IMG/VR virus record: IMGVR_UViG_3300025840_000015
Span: 1 to 64,000 of that record
Length of the DNA stretch: 64,000 nucleotides
Reading direction: 5' to 3' (one strand)
From: a virus
This document shows, in pieces, positions 3,150 to 50,386 of this stretch. Below the pieces are notes generated by a model. That model was not told where the DNA came from. It worked only from the letters and a program-made list of their open reading frames with translations, and did no database searches. The first letter of the stretch is position 1; each line of letters opens with the position of its first letter. The position numbers and the translations under genes were made by a program.

Positions 3150-4862
3150 TTATTTTAAAATCCTCGAAAATCCTTTTACTTTTTCAAATTTTGTTACAGA
3201 ATCAAATCTGTCTTCCAATCCTACTTTATGTGATATTACAAAAATATTAGCATCTTTAATTACATATCTAATAATTTTTAAAAACTCTTCCGTTCCAAAT
3301 CCATCTAGAGAAGAATCAAAAACTTCATCCATAATCAACAAGTTAGTATTTACTGAGTTTTTAATTCTAGCAACTTCTCTCCAAGTGAAAAGAAGTGCTA
3401 GATCAATTCTCATTTTTTCACCTTCACTAAATGAAGAATATGAAAAATCTTCATGAATTGGAGATTCTATAGTTTCATCAAATTCTTCATCAAGTTTAAA
3501 GTTGATGAAGAATTCCATCATTTGCAAATAACGATTAACTTGTTGATTAATTAACGGAAGATATTTTTTAATAATTTTTGTTTTTACGCCATCATCTTTT
3601 AGTAAAGAATTGGCAAAATCGTAATAAACGATTTCTTGTTTTTTGTCTGATAGTTTTTCTGTTGTCTTGTGGAGATTTTCCTTAAATTGTTCTAATTTCT
3701 CATGTTCAGAATTTCTGTCCTGTAGCTGACTGGTAATAGTTTGAATTTCATGTTCAAGATCTCTGATTTGTCTATTGTTGATCTTAGACCTAGTATTGTT
3801 TTGAGAAATATCATGAGTTAATTTGTTAATCTCCTTGGAAAGTGCATTGAACTGACGCTCTCTTTCTTGTTCAGACTTAATTGATTTTTCAAGTTCTTCA
3901 TAACCTTCTTTAAGTTCTCTTGCTTTATTTTTAGCGTCACTAATTCTATTTAACCGAAAAGAATCTTCAATATTTTGTGTGCATGTTGGGCAAACCGTAT
4001 TTTTATCAAAAAATTCATACTCTTCAGTAATAACAGATACTTTTTGGGAGATTTTTCCTTTCAAATTGTTTAGTTTTACTAACTTATCTTTGTAGTTAAC
4101 TAACTTGTCTTGCTCTGATATTAGACTTTTAATTTCTTTGTGTAGTTCTTCATTAGTTTTTTCTAATTCATCAATTTCTTGATTGATAGAAATAATTTTA
4201 TTTTTGTTATCTAGTATTTTTGAATTTCCCAGGTTCTCAAGTTCTTCAATAAAGTTAGACTGCATTTCTACTTTATCAAAAAGACTCTCTTTTTTTACAT
4301 TTAATGATTTAATAATATCTCGTTCGAGTCTAATCTTATCCTTTATAACACCACTCATCACAGAGAATATTCTAATATCCAACAAATCTTCAATAACTTC
4401 TCTGCGATTAGCAGTTGTTAATTGCATAAAAGGAACAAAACTACTGCTACCAAGAATAACAATTTGGGTAAATGATTTGTAGTTTAATTTTAAAATATTT
4501 TCTTCAAGAATTCTTTGATTTGACCTATCGTCAGATTCTTTATGGAGAGTTATTCCATCAACTACAATGTCAAAGATATTTGGCTTTATACCTCTCCTTA
4601 CCAAATATTGCTTATCATTAATACTAAACTCAATTTCAACAACACAGTCTTTTTCATTTGTAGAGTTTACTAATTGAGGTTTTGTAATTTTCCTAAAACT
4701 TTTATTGAAGAGAACAAAAGTTAAAGCATCCAAAATAGTAGATTTTCCAGATCCATTTGATCCAACAATCAAATTAGTATTATTTTTTTGGAAGTTTACT
4801 TCTGTAAAATGATTTCCAGTGGAAAGGAAATTTTTATAACGAATTTTTTTAAAAGTTATCAT
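3150..4862 (-). CDS. gp46: Recombination endonuclease subunit gp46 (Rad50/SbcC-like ATPase)
   Basis: 570 residues, ATP-binding subunit of the gp46/gp47 complex that resects DNA ends for phage recombination-dependent replication. Visible: Walker A GSNGSGKST at 34-42, long coiled coils at about 165-285 and 310-400, a zinc hook CPTC near 288, the ABC signature FSEGEKMRID near 480, Walker B LLIMDEVFD near 520 and a final His-switch region (FVISHK). Length matches T4 gp46. The start ATG overlaps the end of the DUF3110 gene by 4 bp, so it is translationally coupled in the gp55-gp47-DUF3110-gp46 unit. Confidence 0.97.
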   Translation of the reverse strand: MITFKKIRYKNFLSTGNHFTEVNFQKNNTNLIVGSNGSGKSTILDALTFVLFNKSFRKITKPQLVNSTNEKDCVVEIEFSINDKQYLVRRGIKPNIFDIVVDGITLHKESDDRSNQRILEENILKLNYKSFTQIVILGSSSFVPFMQLTTANRREVIEDLLDIRIFSVMSGVIKDKIRLERDIIKSLNVKKESLFDKVEMQSNFIEELENLGNSKILDNKNKIISINQEIDELEKTNEELHKEIKSLISEQDKLVNYKDKLVKLNNLKGKISQKVSVITEEYEFFDKNTVCPTCTQNIEDSFRLNRISDAKNKARELKEGYEELEKSIKSEQERERQFNALSKEINKLTHDISQNNTRSKINNRQIRDLEHEIQTITSQLQDRNSEHEKLEQFKENLHKTTEKLSDKKQEIVYYDFANSLLKDDGVKTKIIKKYLPLINQQVNRYLQMMEFFINFKLDEEFDETIESPIHEDFSYSSFSEGEKMRIDLALLFTWREVARIKNSVNTNLLIMDEVFDSSLDGFGTEEFLKIIRYVIKDANIFVISHKVGLEDRFDSVTKFEKVKGFSRILK

Positions 4863-33637: not shown

Positions 33638-35209
33638 TTAAAATTCGAGAATGATTTTGATGTCTTCTTTTTGTCTTTCATTTCTATAGACTAGAGGTCT
33701 ATTGTCAATATATAAAATATCCCCCGTTCTTTTATTTATCTCTGAAGAAGCAAGTCCTTCAGTAAAATTGACTCCCAGATTTACAATTGAATTTTGGATG
33801 TTTGTAGTTATTCCAGAGAAATTTAAAATACTTCCAGAAAAACCACTAGATTCTCCAATTACGTTTAATCCTGCATTGGTAAAATCTATATTTCTCCCAT
33901 CAACAGAAACACCAATATAATCAGTTTCATCATTAGAATCACCATTATAAAGAGATCTATCAGTAAAATACTTTAAAACCTTAGTATCGTCATCATAAGA
34001 TGCTACATATCCAACTGCAGTCCCAACTCCAGTAATTGTTTGTTTAATTTTTTCTCCAACTGTTGGAGAAAATTCATTTACGCTATCAAAAATAATTGAT
34101 TGTAAATTTGAAAATTCTCCACCATAATAAATTTGATCCGATGCATATTCTTTTGGATTTTTTACAATACCAATTTGACAAAATCTAGAATTTACTGGAA
34201 AATCTCTAGTTGAAGAATCAAATCTAGTATATAATAATACCTTATCTGCACCCAATTCGGTGTAAATATCATACCCATGACCTTTTGATGGTGGGATAAT
34301 TGGAATTAATTTTGCTGGATTGGATATATTTCCAATTGGTTGTAAATTTCCTAAGTCAACAATACCATATGAATATCCAGAACCTCCGGAAGTTACGGTA
34401 GTATTAATTATTTCTCCTGCGGAATTTGTTTCTATTGAAACTTTAGCTCCAGAACCATCACCTAAGATTGAAACTTCACCTGAAGTATATCCTGAACCAC
34501 TTTCAGCAATAAAAACAGTTTTAATCTGATTTTCATTTAAATCAGAATTGCCATATTCTCTTACACTTACAATATTTGAGTCAGTTGATGTTGACCAGTC
34601 GTTTGGTAATGGTATATATTCTGTAGAATCAAATTTTATAATATCTGAAGGTGAAATAGTAAACAAATATTTCCACACATATCCATCTGAACCATTTCCT
34701 GCAGCAGATGGTTCTAAATCAGTAAATTTTGGTTCATATTGAGATTGATTTGCCTGATTATTTCCTGCACCACTTCCATTTTTTATGCAAATATACACAT
34801 TATATTCACTATTAATTACATAAAATTCAGAATCGAATAATCTTGGTCTTTTTGATACTGTAGTTAGATTTGAAAAACTATAATCATGTCTATACATATC
34901 ATATTTTTTACCTCTAACCCAATCAACTCTCTTCACAACTCTTCTTACACTAGAAGAAGTTACTCTTTTTCCAAAAAGTAGAGTATCTTTATATTGATTC
35001 AAATAGCTAAGATTATCAACTGGATTTGGGACAAAACCTTCAGAAACACCTGGAGATCCCTGCCAGTTTTCATTTCTAGCAAATCCAGTATAAACACTTG
35101 GATTTGGCAATCCAACCCAGATATAATAAGAATTTGTAGAATCTTTTATAGATTCTACAAAATTCGAAGAATTTTCAATTCTAAATTGATCTGTTACAAG
35201 TGCGGACAT
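33638..35209 (-). CDS. gp8: Baseplate wedge protein gp8
   Basis: 523 residues, longer than T4 gp8 (334). Shared features: FRIENSSNFVESI near the start, VVKRVDWVRGKKYDMYRH, DGYVWKYLFTISPSDIIKF, then GIVKNPKEYASDQ and the closing LYIDNRPLVYRNERQKEDIKIILEF (split). Two G-x-GY repeats (GSGYTSGEVSI, GSGYSYGIVDL) make up much of the extra length. gp8 dimers link wedge proteins gp7 and gp10. A TATAAATA box precedes it. Confidence 0.94.
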   Translation of the reverse strand: MSALVTDQFRIENSSNFVESIKDSTNSYYIWVGLPNPSVYTGFARNENWQGSPGVSEGFVPNPVDNLSYLNQYKDTLLFGKRVTSSSVRRVVKRVDWVRGKKYDMYRHDYSFSNLTTVSKRPRLFDSEFYVINSEYNVYICIKNGSGAGNNQANQSQYEPKFTDLEPSAAGNGSDGYVWKYLFTISPSDIIKFDSTEYIPLPNDWSTSTDSNIVSVREYGNSDLNENQIKTVFIAESGSGYTSGEVSILGDGSGAKVSIETNSAGEIINTTVTSGGSGYSYGIVDLGNLQPIGNISNPAKLIPIIPPSKGHGYDIYTELGADKVLLYTRFDSSTRDFPVNSRFCQIGIVKNPKEYASDQIYYGGEFSNLQSIIFDSVNEFSPTVGEKIKQTITGVGTAVGYVASYDDDTKVLKYFTDRSLYNGDSNDETDYIGVSVDGRNIDFTNAGLNVIGESSGFSGSILNFSGITTNIQNSIVNLGVNFTEGLASSEINKRTGDILYIDNRPLVYRNERQKEDIKIILEF

Positions 35210-35236: not shown

Positions 35237-38200
35237 CTATTAGAGCACCACTATCTCTGAATCCAAAGTTTCTTCTCTGAATGATGGGATATGTTGATAA
35301 TCCAGAATTATATGAATCAGATGTCATACCAACACTAGAAGTATATCCCATTATATCAATATCTAGTGGATCAACAGATCTTCTCTGGAATCCAGAAAGT
35401 CTTCCCCAAGAAAGTTTTCCTACAGGATAATTTAATGTTCCTGAAGTTGTTATTCCAGAAAGATTTGATCCGGAATCGACATTGCATACTATAGTTCCAG
35501 TTGAAGAATTGAAAGATGCAACTTGATAAATGTTATTGACAAATGATGTGGATATTGATAAAGTATTTGATCCAGAATTATCTAAGGAAATGACTCCCTG
35601 TCCAACATTAGTCTCAGTAATATAAAATACTGTTCCAACAGTAAAATTAGTGAACGTGAATGGGTCTCTACTAATTACAAATTCAATTCCATCAGCAGCA
35701 CCAATTCCAGAAGTTGGAGATATGCTAGTTACACTAGCATTAAATCCTTCTAGATTATTTACGCCAGAAATTAATTCATAATTTTTTGATGGTATAGTTG
35801 TTCCAACTCCAACAGCGTTTGTAAATACAAGAGCATCAAAATTAATTATAGTTTCATCCTCATAATCAAATAAACTAATATCATCAACATATATTTCTGT
35901 TGAATTTGCATCAAAATTACTTATAATATTGGCAGTTGGATATACTTGAGATGATTTTAATCTTCTTGCTTTTGATAATTCCTCATTATTAAGTATTAAG
36001 TCAGATTTTTGTTTTGTCCAATGCAATGGCTTATAATTTTGATCATCTATACCAACATACTGATATATATTTGTCTGGAAAACATCAGAGCTTGTTATGG
36101 AATAAACAATTCTTTCATCTTGAGTTTTTGTATTTTCAATTTCATTGTTTAATACAATTTGAACAGTATCTCCAATTTGTATAGTTTCATCAATATCAAA
36201 TTGAAGACTATCTTCACCTCTAGTTCCTCTATAGAAGAAGACCTTAACGTCATCAGATTCTTTTGGCGGGAAAGTAAATGTGAATGTAGATCCACCATTA
36301 AATTGATATGATTTTATTGGTTCTTGTAAAACTCCATTTATAAAGATAACTAAAACATTGTTCAAATCAATCAATTCAGACTCTTCGTCAAGTTCATCAG
36401 TCTCAAAAGTTAAGTTTTCTCCTCTGTAAATTAGTGGGAATCTGACTCTCTTTCCATCTTGATATGGTGCTAAAGAATCTATATAATCAAGTTCCCCAAT
36501 CTGAATAGCACTAAATTCATCAGAAAATGTATCTACCACAGTAATTTCAAAATCATATATTGGAGCAGATAGATTTCTATCAGTAACTAGACCAATTGGT
36601 TTAAATACATCGCCTCTTCTAAAACCATAACCATTTCTAACAATATTAAATCCTTTAACTTCGTAAAGAGTAGAACCAATACCAACAGAATCACTTGGTC
36701 CTACATCTAAAGTTATAAGAGCACCAAATCCAGAGTCTGTTGTAGGTCCCTCTGATAGTCTAGAAACACCAATTATAGAGAGATTGCTATAAGATGGTGA
36801 TCCAACATTTATAAATGGATTTACATAACCTGTTCCACCGAAGACAACATCAAATGCCAGTGTTCCACCAGCACCAACAATTGCATTAATAATAGCATCA
36901 TCACCATTATGATCAGGATCGATAATTTCTACTGAAGGAATTTCATAATAACCAGAACCAATCTCATCAGATGGTTGTTCTCCTACAGAGATTATTGAAC
37001 CAGAATTTAAAACTGCTGTTACTGATGCTCCAACTAGAGGTGCAAAACCAAGTCCTGCAGTTGATCCATATGATACAATAACACCTCCTCTTGGAAGTTT
37101 ATTCTGATTTATATCAATTTCAGATAAGAAATCATTTTCTTCAAATGTTATTCCAGTGAAGGTGATACTAGATATTCCAAGATTGAGATCTTCCTCAATA
37201 ATATAATTATTATCGGAATTATTTTCAGTAGTTGGTGATTGGAAGACACCATTAATGAATACTAGTCCATTACCACCACTAGTTCCTAAACCTACAGTGT
37301 TTATTCCTTGAGCAGTTAATGTGAATGTTTGTCCAATTCCAGTAAATTGATCTGAAATGTCATCATATACTTCATTACTTTCATAACTCTTTCTCAAGAA
37401 TACTCTACCATTAAAACTATCTCGATCTATAGATAGATTACTTTCACTAGCACGAACTAAATCTAAATTATTTCCTTTTGGTGGATCAATGAAGTATATT
37501 TTATTTCCATTGATATTATATGCACCCCTATAGATTTGACAATTAGTTCCATCTAGATGAGATAACGCCTTAGATCCAAAAGATCCTCTAGAAACTTCAA
37601 CTAAAGGTTCATTTCCGGAGAATGTTATGGGACCTACACTTTCAGTTCCATATCCAACATTTTCAACTATTGCATATTCATCTTCAATCCTCAATACATC
37701 TTTAGGTCTAATTGAACTTATTCCACTAAGAGCAAAAGTAGTGGCACCAGCAGAAATTTGACCAGAATTGTTTGCAAGAACATGACTAATGTAGGTATAT
37801 GAAATTGGACTTTGAACTAAATTATTAATTGAAATTAAAGATTTTTCATTTTTCTTTACCATCTCAATTTGATGATAATTACCAATTCCAACAGAAGTAA
37901 ATGTAACACCATATCCGGCAGTAGCATATTCCTTTCTAGTTGCTACTCTAAATGTATCATTATCATCTCTAATAGCATATAATGTAGATGGTAGAAGATC
38001 AGTTAATACTCCAACATTATCCTCAGTTTCAACTATTCCTATAGGAGAACTTCCAATTCCTACAAACGTTGATCCTGGAGTATATTTTAATTCTTCCCCA
38101 GTATTAAATAAATGATCTTTAATATTGAATGAATTAGTAGAAAAATCTACTACACTAGTATTTGATGGATCAAAAGATTTTGCAAATATTGGAGAACCTT

Positions 38201-41200: not shown

Positions 41201-44200
41201 AAACATTAAAACCATAACCAGACAATGAAGTATCTGATAGATCAAATACTAAATTATTATTCCTATAATTTGAAATTGGTGGATTTATTGAACTTATTAT
41301 CTGTAGATTTCCCCCAACAGATCCAAATGAAACTACAGTTGGTGGAGTTGAAATTGATTCTAAATATGTTTCTGACAATTTGATATTGTCATCATCAATT
41401 TTATATACGAAATATTCTCCAGTAGATAGTCCAGATATTACATTGTCTTCGGAGTCATAGAATATTTTTTGTCCGGTATGGAAATTATGTTGGTATATTG
41501 ATAATATATTATCAATATTGTTTACTTCTGAAGAAGTAAACTTGATTTCATTTATCAATAGATTTCCATCTTTATACTTAACTCTTATGGACGTGCTTGT
41601 TCCTATACCAACATTTAAATCTGGTCTAACATTTAATTTTACTTTATCACCAACTTGCAAATTATGAGAAGTTGAAATTGATACTGTGGTTGTAATTCTA
41701 TTAGAATCTGCAGTTATTTGATCCTCAACTGTAGTAAATTGATATCCATAATCATTTGAACCACCATCTAAGAAAAATAATCCATTCGAAAAAGTTGTAA
41801 GACCAACATTAGTTACAATTCCAATAAAATCAATTGATTTTTTAACAACATAAAATTCATTTACATCATCAGGGATATTAAATTCTGCATTTGTTTCAGG
41901 ACTTTTGACAGAAATTGGTAACGATGATGATTCTTTACTTAATATTATCTTGTCCGCAGTATTTAACTTATTATTTTGTAAAAGTATTGACTGTGATGGA
42001 ATAAATGTATTATAATTAGAATTTCCTATATTATAGGATACAGTAACGCCAAAACCAGTATTTACGCCTACAGAAAGGGCAATATTGGGATTGAAATATA
42101 AATTCCTAGATTTATTGGAAATAAATTTATCAACGGATTTTTCTATGGTAAAATAATCGGGCAAAAATTCTATATTAGCACCACTAGTATGTGCAGTTCC
42201 AGATACTGATCTTTCTACTTTTGCAATAGAAAATGTATTATAAAAATCTAGAATTTTAAATAATTCATCATCAATTCTTATGCTATTTCCAACTGATACA
42301 TTTTCTGGAATATAGCTCAAATATATGTCTGTAACTATTCCAGTAGTTGAATAATCACCGATAGATTCAAATAAGGTTGAATTTATAGTATCAAATTTAA
42401 CTTTATATGTATCATTTATTTTCAAACTATCAGTTGATAATCCACTAATTGTAATTATATCATCTACATTATATTCATGATATGGGAAAACATTGACTCT
42501 AATATAGTTTTTATCTTCCCATGAAAGAACTGAATTTGGATATGATATTAATTCTGTATCAATACTAGAAACTTCTTTTCCGGAAATTTCAGATACTTTT
42601 ACAAATGGTTTGTTTCTTAAATCTTCAACATCTTCAAAAACTACAGTATCATTTACTGAGTAATTATCTCCAGGTTCAATTATAGTCATTCCATCAATAC
42701 CACCGGTCGATATTGATTCTATTATAGATTCTTGATATGTTAATTTATTGGATTCTGATATAAAATCATTTGTTGAAAACTTATCACCAATTCCATATGG
42801 ATATGTATTTCTTAGTAATTTTGAACTATTAAAATCAAATGACTGATTTAAATTTTGATTTATTTTTAAATACTTCGATTTAAATTTATTTCCTATAAAA
42901 TATGGAAATTTTCCAATTATTCCTTCATCCACATTCAATTCGGTAGTTGCAAAATAAGCATAAACTCCATTTGGAAAATCTATAGTTTTTCCAAATCTAC
43001 CATTAAATTCATCTAAATCAGAATCTACAGAATATACATAGTCTTCTACAAAGTATCCTAAGGGGAAAATATCTTCAGAAGGTCTATTATCAATTGTAGT
43101 TAATTCGTAACCACTATTCAATAGTTTTATGTCGGAATTTATATCTTCTGGATCCGAATATCCATAAGATCCATAAATTGGATTTCCATCATATGCCCAT
43201 CCAATAATTTCTGAATGAGAACCATTAGTTCCACTAACATCATTTAATTTATTCTTAAGAGTATCTGAATAACTTACAACAGCATATTGCAAATTATTTC
43301 TACCTCTTATTAATAATTCTGATGATGGATCTCTATAGAAGTTATTCTGAATTCCATATCTAAAAGATATGTTTGGAGTTAGAGATCTTATATTTGCCCT
43401 TAAAACTGTTCCAGCACCAGGATTTAAAATGGTTACTGTAGTATCTGCTTGAGCATATCCACTTCCAGAATTCAGAACAGATACGCTGACAATTTTATTA
43501 TCTGAAAGTGTTGCTCTTAATACTGCACCAATTCCGGAACCATTCACTACCAAATCTGGAATTGAATAATAATTAGATCCTCCAAATAATACCTTAACAG
43601 AACTTATTTTTCCATCAACGATTACTGGATCAAGTATTGCACCAGAACCATTTTTAACTAAAATAGGTGGTCTATTATTAAAATTGAGACTATTTGATCC
43701 ATAGTCAGATCCACCATCATAAACATAAATCTGAGAGATTTCTCCTCTTATAATTGGAAATCCTTTCAATACAGTTTGAGTATTTCCAATTCCAGGAGAT
43801 GAATATCTAATATTAACACTAAATTCTGGATCACTGAAGATCTGATCACCAGATCCGGAATCGAATAATCTTGCCCTATATCTCCTCGAATAGTCGGTAA
43901 TATCTTTACCATCTTCACCAGCATATGCTAGTCCAAATGTATCATCATCAACTTTTAATACTCTATATTTGTCAGATGTTGATATTCCAGATATTGATGT
44001 TATTTCTGATTCGTAATTTACAATATCTCCATCAGAGAATCCATGATTTTTGTAGTTTATTGTGTTACTAAAAGTTGAAATTCCAGATGAAGATACTTTT
44101 AATCTTCTATTAGTATAATTAGAACCACCACTAACTACTAATATTTCAGATAGTTTATTTCTACCTGAAGATAAGAACTTATGAGTTCCCAAATCAGTTA

Positions 44201-47200
44201 CAGTTGTAAATCCTACTGGATTTAATTGTTGATAGTAGTTATTTAAACTATCATACAACTCAATTTTACTTCTATCCAATATTCTTGGATAGTATATTGC
44301 ATTATTAACTAATTTCTTAAATTCAAAAGCATTTACTGGAGTTCCATAATGATAAACTTTTCCAGTTCTTACTCCTGGTTCTCTTGCTCCAACTATAATT
44401 CTCCCACTTCCTATGGCAAGAGCAAATCCAAACTGATCTGATGCGGTAGAGTCTGTTGGAATTAATGTTGATAATAAATTTCCAGTAATATCATAAACAA
44501 AAACCTTTCCAGCAAAGGAATTGTAACCAAATGAAGATGTAACTATTCTTCCACTATTAATTTTGACATTTCTTCCCATATAATCTTGGGCAACACCAGC
44601 AGAATCTGTGAGTATATTCAACTCATTTCCTTCATAATCAAATAAGTAAATTGCACCTTTTTCTCCATCTCTATATGGAGCACCAACAGCGATTAAGTCT
44701 TCTTTTATACTTATTGAAGTTCCAAATCTATCTCCTATAGTAACACCACCACCAGATCCATCAGATGGAACAATCCTCCTAATAAAGTTTCCATTTACAT
44801 CATAAAGATATATTGCACCGATAAAATCAGCATAACCTACAGCACCAACGGCAATTAAATTATCGTTTATATCAACTGAAAAACCAAAGACTAAAGTAGC
44901 TTCTGGATCTGAAGGATATATTTTGTTTATTATATTTCCTTCTAAATCATAAATGTATGCAGCACCAGTTTGTAATCCATAATCATCATCATAACGAGAA
45001 CCAACTACAATTCTATCATTTCCAATAGCAATACTAAATCCAAATTGATCACCATCAGCAGCATCAAATGCCGTTATTTTACTCTTAAAATTGCCTTCAT
45101 AATCAAATAAGTATACAGCACCTCTACTTGTTGACTCAAATACTGCAGTAACTGCTATTACACCCTGTCCTATTGCAACTGCAGATCCAAACTGAGCATT
45201 GGTCTGCAAATCTGCTTCTGGGGCACTTAAAAGAATATATTCACTTCCATTTAAATCTGTAATGTATGCTTTACCAGCACCAGCATAAAGAGTAGCACCA
45301 ACAAATATTTCTGCTAAAGGGGCACCAATCACAACCTTATCAGAATCTATTGCTACAGATCCTCCAAATTGATCAAGACTAACTGCATCAAAAATATATT
45401 GATTTCTAAATGATGGTGTTGTGGTAGAATCTAATATTCTAGTTTTAATATTTACTTCAGAAAGTCCATTTGAGTTATATACAATTTCTTGACCATTAAT
45501 CAATCCATGGGCATTTTTAAAGGTTATGGTTCTTTCTTTTTTATCGATTCCTCCACCATCAGATACCAATCTAGTATCAAAATCAAGATTTCTTTCAACT
45601 TTTTCTACAACTGGTCTAAATTTTGCACCAGAACCGTTTCCACCATTAAATTCAATTGAAGTAATGTTATCAAAATCAAAGAAAGATTGGTCAATTAAAA
45701 TTTTATTTACTGATCCAGAAACTACTGGATAAAATTCTGCAGAACCATATGCAGGTTCGATCAGTGGTGGATTTGAAACATCATAATTGGATCCACCATT
45801 TAGAACATCTACACTTTCAATAGGTCCATAATAAACTTTATCATTAGTCTTATAACTGTAGATTTCTACACCATTTTTCAATATCCCTATTGGTCCAGGT
45901 TCAACTTCTGTTGGAAGACTACTATCAATAGTTTGGGATAGATTAATTTTATTTAATACTTTTTGTGGATACAATAATCCTTCTCTTTGATCAAAAAGAA
46001 CCAATCTATTTTCATTTTCTGGGAGAGTATCACCCAATGAAAGTCCAAAATATAAAAAGTCTTCGGAAGGAACATTAACTCCACTTTGATATAGTTTTAA
46101 ACTCTTTTTATCTTCTAATACTTCGACAAAATAAAATCCTTCTTCAAGATTAGTTATTGTCAGTGAAGGGTCTGGATAATAAAAAACTTTATCGCCAGTT
46201 AAGAATGAAATTGGAGTATCAAAGACGATAGTAGAATATTCTCTTTTAATTCCATCAAATCCACCAAACTTTTTAATCTTATACTCAAATGGTTTGATGT
46301 CTATTGGATATGATGGCAATGAGTTTGAAGCAATGTATGCAATATCAGAACCATCTTCATCATCAAAATATACATTTTGAATATCTGATGATATTACATC
46401 ATTTCCATATTTTACTGGAACATATTCTGAAGTTGCCTTATTCAGCAATCTTCTAGCATCATAAGTAAGATTTCTATTTAAATTTGATGTGCTTACACTT
46501 AAAGATATACTACCATCACTAGAAATTGATTGTATATTTACGTGCTCATACCCAGGAATTGCAAATTCAGTTCCTCTAGATAAGATTTCAACATAATCTC
46601 CAACTTTCAATGGAGTTTCTAAAACATTTGATGATATTCTTATCGTATTTCCACTATAAAAATTGATTTGATATCTTGAATTTGTATTATATACTAATGA
46701 ATTTGCAAATATCTCTTTCTTAGAAATTCCTTTAGTTACAATCTGACCAATACTTTCTGGATAAAGTGAGTCTCCAATTTCAAAATTGAAATCATCATTT
46801 TTTAAATCAAAATCTGAAAGGATTCCTGTAATTATAAAATCAACTCTTCTAGAGGTATCACCCTCTTCATAACCATAATAAGTATTGGTTCCGTAAATAA
46901 AATCAGTTTTATTTACAGTTACTGGGAAATCTCCATTAATATGGCATCCTAAAAATTGATTTACTGTTTTTTCAGTGTAGAAAATCTCAGTATTTCCTTT
47001 AAAGATACTTCCAGACTCTTCGAATCCTACAGTAGAATCTACAGTAATTGCAACTAAATCTGTATTCGATACTACTACAGTTTCTGAAACTCTACTATTT
47101 GTAGTGATATTGAAATTTCCGGTGATCGATGGATATGTATCATCATATCCTACAAATAAATTTAATCTATAATACTTGACTCCATTCTTGGTAAATGTAT

Positions 47201-48033: not shown

Positions 48034-49980
48034 TTATGACCTCGTTAAACTCCCGTTGGAATAGCTTGAACTATAATAATTTTTATTGAAAATGATTCCA
48101 GAATTATCTTCACCAGATGAAATGGTATCTTTAATCATATTTATTTTACTTTTTGAAATATCAAATGAAACATAAAGATCCTTTAATCCGAGAACATCAT
48201 TTGATTCTGGGAATGCTTGAATCTCAATAATATTATTTGTCAGTGCAGTTTCTGTAATGATAATATTATTAATTATAATTTCTCCAGTTTCATAATTAAC
48301 TGATCCTGCAGACTTAACAACAACAGTTGGTGCAAATTCATCTGAAGCATTTTCTTGTATTTCATTTGATGGTTTTACAATTGATAATACACCAGTCTTT
48401 TTATCTGAATTTGGTGTATCAGTAAAGTAAACAGTGTCAAGTTCATTCAAAATTTTAAATCCAGTTGATTTAATATTATACTTATCATTCACATGGAATT
48501 TATTACCAAAGCAAATTTCATATTGTGCAAATGTATTGATTAGAGCTTTTAAGTCTCTTCTAATAATTACCTTTGTAATATTGGATGTAATTGCAGAATC
48601 TGTATTATCAATAATCTGCAATACTTTACTATACTTGAATCTTCCACCAAATTTATTCAAATCTACTGATTTCGAATAAGAAGTTAGTGATGATATTACT
48701 TTACTATTCAGATCAGATACGTTAGAAATTCTATTAAAGTTATAATATACTGAACTATTAATTTCAACATATAGAATCTTAAGATCAACTATTTTCTGAT
48801 TAATTCCAGAAATGCTATATCTCTTAAGTTCTGATAGAATCTGCTCTTTATCAAAGTCAGATACAAACGTTCCATTTTTTGGTTTTATACTAATCAAAAC
48901 ATTTCCATATTGAGGAGGATCTAGTTCTTCTCCACCAACAACAGAAACAGATTCTGCATTCTTGTAGATTTTAGATTTTATAATAGTTTCATAGTCAGTG
49001 CTGGTTACTGCTCTATTTTGTGAAGAATATAATCTTGGTGCAAAATATCGAACAGAATCAATGCTTTCAATATCAGATCCATTAATTGATTTTCTATTTG
49101 TAGTTACATTAACCGTATTTGTTGGTATTGCAATATTATCTCTATCATCTCTCAAAGTTCCCGCAAATGAGAATGAATCTACTCCATTACCATCTTTACC
49201 CGATGTTATAATGTAATTTGCAGTTATTACATCTGCATTTTGAAGTTCTTTTCCAAATATACCATTACCAAACAGTAATTGATACTTTTCACCCTCTACT
49301 TCTTGTAGGAGATAAACTAAAGAGTTTCTATCAACATCGACAATATTTTCTACTAATCTATATTGATCACCAAGACCGACATCATTTGCTGATCTAACAT
49401 AAGTTCTTATAGTTGTTGAGTCAATAAAAGAGTTATCTAAAATAAATTTTTGATCTATGGAAGAATCTACTGTAAATCTTTTGGTTAAAAGTGTTCCTTC
49501 CTTAATATCAATATTATTAAATGATGCAACACCATTTGTTACTGTCGTTGTGATACTTTCACTAATTGAAAATACAAATGAAGAAGATCTTACAGTTCCT
49601 GTGCAAACTAGTCCAGGTCTTAATGTAAGTGTTGCAGGATAAATTGGAGTATTATCCGCAAGAAATTCTACCGGATCCACTTCAATATTGAAAGATACAT
49701 TTGCAGTTGCCGCTTTTCTTGAACTTGGAACATATCCAATATTTCTTGCAAGAGCAACAACGTTTTGCCTTAATGTTGCAGAGTCTAAAAAGGACTCATT
49801 AACAATCATACTGCTATTAAATGCAGTGATGTAGGTGTTGTATGCTAGTGTATCGATTAAAACTGAAAAATTAGATCCCTCAAAGTCAAAATCAGTAAAT
49901 GTTGAGTTTGCTCTAAGATAATCTTTGATGGAATCTCTTATTTGGTCGAAATCGAGATTTGTAAATTTGGTAAAAGGCAT
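48034..49980 (-). CDS. gp6: Baseplate wedge protein gp6
   Basis: 648 residues. DQIRDSIKDYLRANSTFTDF, GSNFSVLIDTLAYNTYITAF and ESFLDSATLRQNVVALARNIGY form the gp6/gpJ-type N-terminal signature; the rest includes YTSGKDG-like and QNRAVTSTDYETIIKSKI segments shared by baseplate J-like proteins. gp6 forms the inner ring that fastens the wedges together. Follows gp25 with a 4-bp gap. Confidence 0.97.
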   Translation of the reverse strand: MPFTKFTNLDFDQIRDSIKDYLRANSTFTDFDFEGSNFSVLIDTLAYNTYITAFNSSMIVNESFLDSATLRQNVVALARNIGYVPSSRKAATANVSFNIEVDPVEFLADNTPIYPATLTLRPGLVCTGTVRSSSFVFSISESITTTVTNGVASFNNIDIKEGTLLTKRFTVDSSIDQKFILDNSFIDSTTIRTYVRSANDVGLGDQYRLVENIVDVDRNSLVYLLQEVEGEKYQLLFGNGIFGKELQNADVITANYIITSGKDGNGVDSFSFAGTLRDDRDNIAIPTNTVNVTTNRKSINGSDIESIDSVRYFAPRLYSSQNRAVTSTDYETIIKSKIYKNAESVSVVGGEELDPPQYGNVLISIKPKNGTFVSDFDKEQILSELKRYSISGINQKIVDLKILYVEINSSVYYNFNRISNVSDLNSKVISSLTSYSKSVDLNKFGGRFKYSKVLQIIDNTDSAITSNITKVIIRRDLKALINTFAQYEICFGNKFHVNDKYNIKSTGFKILNELDTVYFTDTPNSDKKTGVLSIVKPSNEIQENASDEFAPTVVVKSAGSVNYETGEIIINNIIITETALTNNIIEIQAFPESNDVLGLKDLYVSFDISKSKINMIKDTISSGEDNSGIIFNKNYYSSSYSNGSLTRS

Positions 49981-49984
49981 TTTT

Positions 49985-50386
49985 TTATCTTGTTGCCTCT
50001 AGGATGAATGAGAACTGTTGTGTTGGAATTTCTTGTCCAATGACATCAAATATAATTGTAACTTCAAAAGTGTTTTCATCTGGTGATGGTTCCACTTCAA
50101 CATCGATATTTTCAACTCTTGGTTCATAATTTATGATAACTTCCTTTATTTTTTCCTGAATTTCAATGGCAGTTCCATAATCTACGAAGTCAAAGAGACT
50201 ACTCCTTACATCTGAACCAAGATCCGAGTTAAAAAAGCGCTCATTTTTCATTGTTTCAATCAAATTTCGAACCGAACGTATGATTGCATTACGATCTTTG
50301 ATAATTGGGATGTCTTTTGTTACCGGATGTGGATCAAAGGATAGACTAATATCTTTAAAAGATCTAGATACCCTAGTTACTGCCAT
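49985..50386 (-). CDS. gp25: Baseplate wedge protein gp25
   Basis: 133 residues with the family's conserved elements KDIPIIKDRNAIIRSVRNLI, NERFFNSDLGSDVRSSLFDF and a C-terminal beta layer (EVTIIFDVIGQEIP). gp25 has a lysozyme-unrelated EPR-type core (here EPRVENIDVEVEP) and links sheath to baseplate. First gene of the late structural run in transcription order, with a GATAAATA box upstream. Confidence 0.97.
   Translation of the reverse strand: MAVTRVSRSFKDISLSFDPHPVTKDIPIIKDRNAIIRSVRNLIETMKNERFFNSDLGSDVRSSLFDFVDYGTAIEIQEKIKEVIINYEPRVENIDVEVEPSPDENTFEVTIIFDVIGQEIPTQQFSFILEATR

Follow-up and report, generated by a model that had tools for sequence, protein, structure and literature searches.

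The window analysed here is a 64,000-nucleotide stretch (positions 1 to 64,000) of the metagenomic IMG/VR virus record IMGVR_UViG_3300025840_000015, which has 116,179 bases. It contains, in order, gp25 (49985-50386), the baseplate wedge gene gp6 (48034-49980, minus strand; phrog_219, E = 4.7e-190; PF21379), a 4266-aa open reading frame with zero internal stops (48032-35232, minus strand) and the baseplate wedge gene gp8 (33638-35209, minus strand; phrog_438, E = 2.3e-151; PF09215). The large open reading frame matched phrog_2885, described in PHROGs as a baseplate wedge subunit, with 3190 bits (E = 0), and this profile match and its place between gp6 and gp8 put it in the cyanophage baseplate wedge family, at the gp7 position that an earlier note on this DNA had given it. 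Its probable identity as gp7 rests on synteny and PHROG membership. For the comparison with T4 gp7, the query was a poor model (pTM 0.37) of the first 1131 residues of a relative lacking the insertion described below; its top PDB fold match was 5iv5_BJ, a T4 baseplate chain with 1004 residues (E = 0.018, probability 0.33). Named relatives of residues 1-884 belonged to Synechococcus phages, Prochlorococcus phages, other cyanophages and marine single-cell virus records; the virus is therefore most naturally read as a cyanophage-like myovirus.

Several other features of this protein family were recorded. The 4266-aa protein possessed a YHYH domain (PF14240, E = 6.2e-25) at residues 1597-1701 (42930-43244). 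The gp7 family has another insertion point, variable in content, at residues ~3683-3692 (about 36957-36986), where P-SSM2, S-T4, Sf-CH8, S-CAM7 and ACG-2014f carry ~200 to 1080 extra residues; a Pfam scan of four of these inserts returned zero families above cut-off. Beta-domains of gp7 (e.g. residues 957-1001 of L025, and ~1324-1367 of the window protein) bore a weak resemblance, under the Pfam cut-off, to E1_FCCH, a domain found in ubiquitin-activating enzymes, and Uba6 and UBA1 were among insignificant fold matches. In S-SKS1 (L017, HQ633071), the gp7 gene (from 13501) is unannotated and its first open frame stops after about 707 codons.

In the N-terminal third of the 4266-aa protein, the FG-GAP_2 profile (PF14312; cut-off 23) matched the slice containing the repeats with E = 2.6e-52 and 175.2 bits in six significant stretches (45261-45389, 45105-45212, 44949-45086, 44802-44927, 44640-44780 and 44352-44471, minus strand), and the whole protein with E = 2.3e-44 and 149.8 bits. 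FG motifs begin at residues 889, 948, 997, 1049, 1103 and 1201, with an MG near 1152. The AlphaFold2 prediction of residues 800-1310 was built on an alignment of 14 sequences, alignments that mixed rows with and without the propeller being left out as rows were misplaced in them. It modelled four strands each for blade 1 (residues 892-935; 45228-45359), blade 2 (948-986; 45075-45191), blade 3 (997-1038; 44919-45044; PF14312 E = 2.5e-16), blade 4 (1047-1087; 44772-44894), blade 5 (1106-1141; 44610-44717) and blade 6 (1155-1190; 44463-44570), and three for blade 7 (1200-1230; 44343-44435), all on the minus strand. Six of the seven blades were also covered by a PF14312 match; the degenerate blade 6, in which MG replaces FG, had none but still aligned with the other repeats. 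Pairwise identity between blades was 21-47%, far above chance. A strand modelled before the first FG motif (residues 874-879, E75-80 of the model; 45396-45413, minus strand) is predicted to supply the missing strand of blade 7, an assignment based on strand count, which would give a closed ring of seven four-stranded blades. Closing the last blade with an N-terminal strand is usual in propellers. The pLDDT of the propeller in ten-residue blocks was mostly 75-96, with a few weaker blocks at 54-69, and was low in the flanks because the alignment had no depth there.

The top 31 PDB fold matches (Foldseek) were integrin alpha chains, with E-values from 1.8e-14, and the best viral fold match was the S-TIM5 protein H6WG31 (E = 1.2e-23). 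Overall, the seven FG-GAP repeats and the closed seven-bladed propeller proposed in the earlier note held up, and no fold other than a propeller was predicted; the limits of its interval, 44340-45380, were too narrow, since the insertion covers 44334-45440 and the closing strand lies beyond the interval.

The description of the propeller as integrin-like was right for the predicted fold, which it has in common with the seven-bladed propeller of the integrin alpha headpiece, but not for family membership. The integrin FG-GAP profile PF01839 reached 10.5 bits, under its cut-off of 22.1, and no DxDxDG-like pattern, RGD or cysteine was found on scanning the insert (residues ~865-1233). As PF01839 stays below cut-off and the DxDxDG calcium motif is missing, the sequence places the propeller in FG-GAP_2 and outside the integrin family proper; the integrin headpiece differs further in that identity to it is 14-18%. 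Within FG-GAP_2, the seven repeats score well above the curated cut-off and, unlike the family in general, are inserted in a phage baseplate protein, with one repeat degenerate. Some propellers are glycan-active enzymes, and this one might be imagined as an enzymatic head that breaks down surface polysaccharide. Such a role is very improbable: Pfam, NCBIfam and PDB sequence searches gave zero enzyme families, the propeller having zero relatives in the PDB sequence search, and, of the 50 top-ranking PDB fold matches that were listed, all but four Fbw7 chains were integrins.

The propeller forms a discrete inserted segment (residues ~865-1233, 369 aa; 44334-45440, minus strand) that is absent at this site from relatives. 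In tblastn searches, residues 1-884 had matches in 460 phage records and residues 1232-2400 in 461. In the closest isolate, S-SRM01, the first match (54% identity) stops at base 100860 and the second (48%) begins at 100873; these matches are 12 bases apart, leaving about 4 residues at the site compared to 369 in the window, and the S-SRM01 protein, with 3895 aa, is 371 residues shorter. Across named phages and viral contigs (the latter being the best 80 of 587 candidates), 86 of the 87 comparable gp7 proteins had -5 to +9 residues at the insertion site, and the sole carrier was another copy of the window's phage. The possibility, raised by the earlier note, that the same repeats occur in all cyanophage gp7 proteins was thus rejected, while rare further carriers may exist because the contig scan covered those best 80 candidates. 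In the poor model of a propeller-less relative, the insertion site maps to a beta-domain, in the loop that joins two predicted strands, at a local dip in confidence. FG-GAP_2 propellers as such are no novelty in phages, since deposited genomes already carry them; new here is one that is inserted into a baseplate wedge protein, that of the gp7 position.

As the window comes from a metagenomic record, a bacterial or viral propeller could have been misjoined to a phage gene during assembly. This can be set aside with near certainty, because two further contigs (L013 and L014, with 99.995% and 99.8% identity) carry the entire insertion and both junctions, and a third (L015, 94.6% identity) carries the first junction; the reading frame is kept across both junctions. 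The same contigs bear on whether the propeller is a tolerated passenger, i.e. a selfish or accidental domain of little function whose closed ring leaves the host domain undisturbed. Its lineage specificity would fit a passenger, as would a GAA to TAA stop within blade 2 of L014 (2389-2391, equivalent to window residue 979; contig 99.8% identical). This stop is possibly a sequencing error, as many other differences of L014 are G/C-to-T/A changes and the contig could be error-prone. All seven blades are intact and the frame is kept in several contigs, including at the first junction of the one with 94.6% identity, which makes a passenger unlikely. When the window was set against L015, 9 silent and 6 amino-acid-changing codons were counted in the part of the insert that could be compared, and 32 and 5 in the flank (residues 600-864), numbers too small to weigh either way.

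Concerning the origin of the propeller, its nearest relatives were other phage propellers, and bacterial relatives, many from Planctomycetota, had 27-36% identity. In the phylogeny against bacterial propellers that the earlier note had called for, the window grouped with 14 phage propellers (support 95/80), although on a long branch and with program warnings on long branches and letter make-up. A viral source is favoured. GC3 was 0.133 outside the insert and 0.114 within it, inside the spread of the gene, so that a recent transfer from a bacterium of other base composition found no support; the total GC of the insert (0.345) was just over the 0.258-0.341 spanned by stretches of equal size along the gene.

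A tblastn search with the propeller (E <= 1e-5) had matches in 20 phage records, and FG-GAP_2 propellers were present in phages S-TIM5, S-SCSM2R and S-MbCM6 and in marine contigs. The 407-aa virion structural protein of S-TIM5/S-TIM66 (H6WG31) has seven FG-GAP_2 blades like the window, with 34-37% identity, but its gene stands alone, away from the baseplate cluster. In S-MbCM6, a 7022-aa structural protein adjoining gp6 also contains an FG-GAP_2 propeller and has stretches homologous to the window gp7. It is only distantly related to it; a different protein is annotated as gp7 there, the propeller occupies another site (residues ~4440-4830), and the overall architecture of this giant protein is very different. 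S-SCSM2R has its propeller in a 1369-aa protein of the tail region, and contigs L106, L110 and L109 have theirs near tail-fibre, tail-sheath and portal/capsid genes, respectively. In L107, an FG-GAP_2 propeller is fused to a lectin-like Laminin_G_3 domain, and in L116 it belongs to a protein of 4674 aa that also has a YHYH domain and, below threshold, a carbohydrate-binding match. Two or three successive FG-GAP_2 propeller genes were observed in L106 (6578-9971; near tail-fibre and terminase genes), L110 (3347-7109; beside the tail-sheath gene) and L117 (6660-10335).

Propellers of other kinds are also found in phage baseplates, with suspected or proposed host binding: the phi11 receptor-binding protein has a five-bladed propeller and phiKZ gp131C, at the baseplate periphery, a seven-bladed one (PMC4901313). 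These are different proteins from that of the window, likened to it by description, and those of phi11 form trimers. FG-GAP repeats are likewise present in large algal and amoebal viruses, but as separate genes, with a host-attachment role proposed for the MntV1 protein (PMC11467894) and the medusavirus proteins detected in virions (PMC6450098).

The reading preferred here, given an even chance of being right, is that the propeller is an accessory head that binds the host surface, displayed on the baseplate. A whole seven-bladed FG-GAP_2 propeller was inserted in the N-terminal third of the gp7-position protein, in a predicted loop between beta-domain strands; since a closed ring brings its two ends near each other, the host domain could fold around it, and the propeller would project as an independent head. 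T4 has six gp7 copies around its baseplate. If each wedge holds a single gp7, as it does in T4, six propellers per baseplate would act as accessory heads that bind a glycan or surface protein of the host envelope during attachment, and loops on one ring face would determine specificity. Of this, computation gave the repeats, the fold prediction, the clean insertion and its rarity among relatives; projection and binding face are what we infer. Contact with the host surface or with glycans, as the earlier note had suggested, is plausible from context only.

The predicted fold with its modelled closure and the clean insertion at an inter-strand loop are consistent with a host-binding head. Indirect evidence comes from the homologous phage propellers encoded with tail-fibre, tail-sheath and portal/capsid genes, one of them fused to Laminin_G_3, and, by analogy, from the phi11 and phiKZ baseplate precedents (PMC4901313). 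Against it, almost all cyanophages lack a propeller here and still infect. Among six near-identical S-MbCM6/S-MbCM25 isolates (L008, L201-L205), the 7022-aa protein had 52 variable codons, and 4 of the 11 amino-acid-changing ones (4439, 4458, 4523 and 4814) fall within the propeller, a region with 6% of the residues (Fisher 0.014-0.029, binomial 0.002-0.004; a test chosen post hoc, with few sites and related isolates counted as independent). As it is post hoc and concerns few sites, related isolates and a phage other than that of the window, this clustering is a lead only for host binding. The gene start of isolate US88 fails to align with those of the other isolates, so US88 does not enter the count for the first ~1245 codons; this isolate (Syn7803US88; L202, 1727-5961) has two annotated genes in place of the single one for the 7022-aa protein.

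Propellers often act as interaction platforms, and T4 gp7 is an established hub in wedge assembly. The ring could instead serve as a structural docking site or spacer for protein-protein contact, holding a fibre (the docking ring of the earlier note), a gp9/gp10-like protein or a neighbouring wedge. This was considered unsupported and rather improbable: because the closest relatives assemble without a propeller, anything docked there would need to be lineage-specific, and no such partner was identified, while homologues of the propeller exist as stand-alone proteins. Extending the host-binding reading, one may tentatively suppose, though it is doubtful, that FG-GAP_2 propellers are a widespread mobile receptor-binding class in marine T4-like phages, occurring as single genes, tandem sets and baseplate insertions, and that in the window adhesion moved into the gp7-position wedge protein as a second host contact independent of fibres.

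A baseplate wedge protein is usually regarded as scaffold. The window indicates that it can take a whole ring of predicted integrin fold into one loop, and the distribution described above suggests that FG-GAP_2 propellers recur as virion modules among marine phages. The open-access literature searched gave no description of FG-GAP with phage and baseplate or tail fiber, and a 2024 paper suggests that FG-GAP repeats may have been confirmed in a virus for the first time in an algal virus (PMC11467894). If the propellers do bind hosts, they would help determine which hosts cyanophages infect, and this could be tested.
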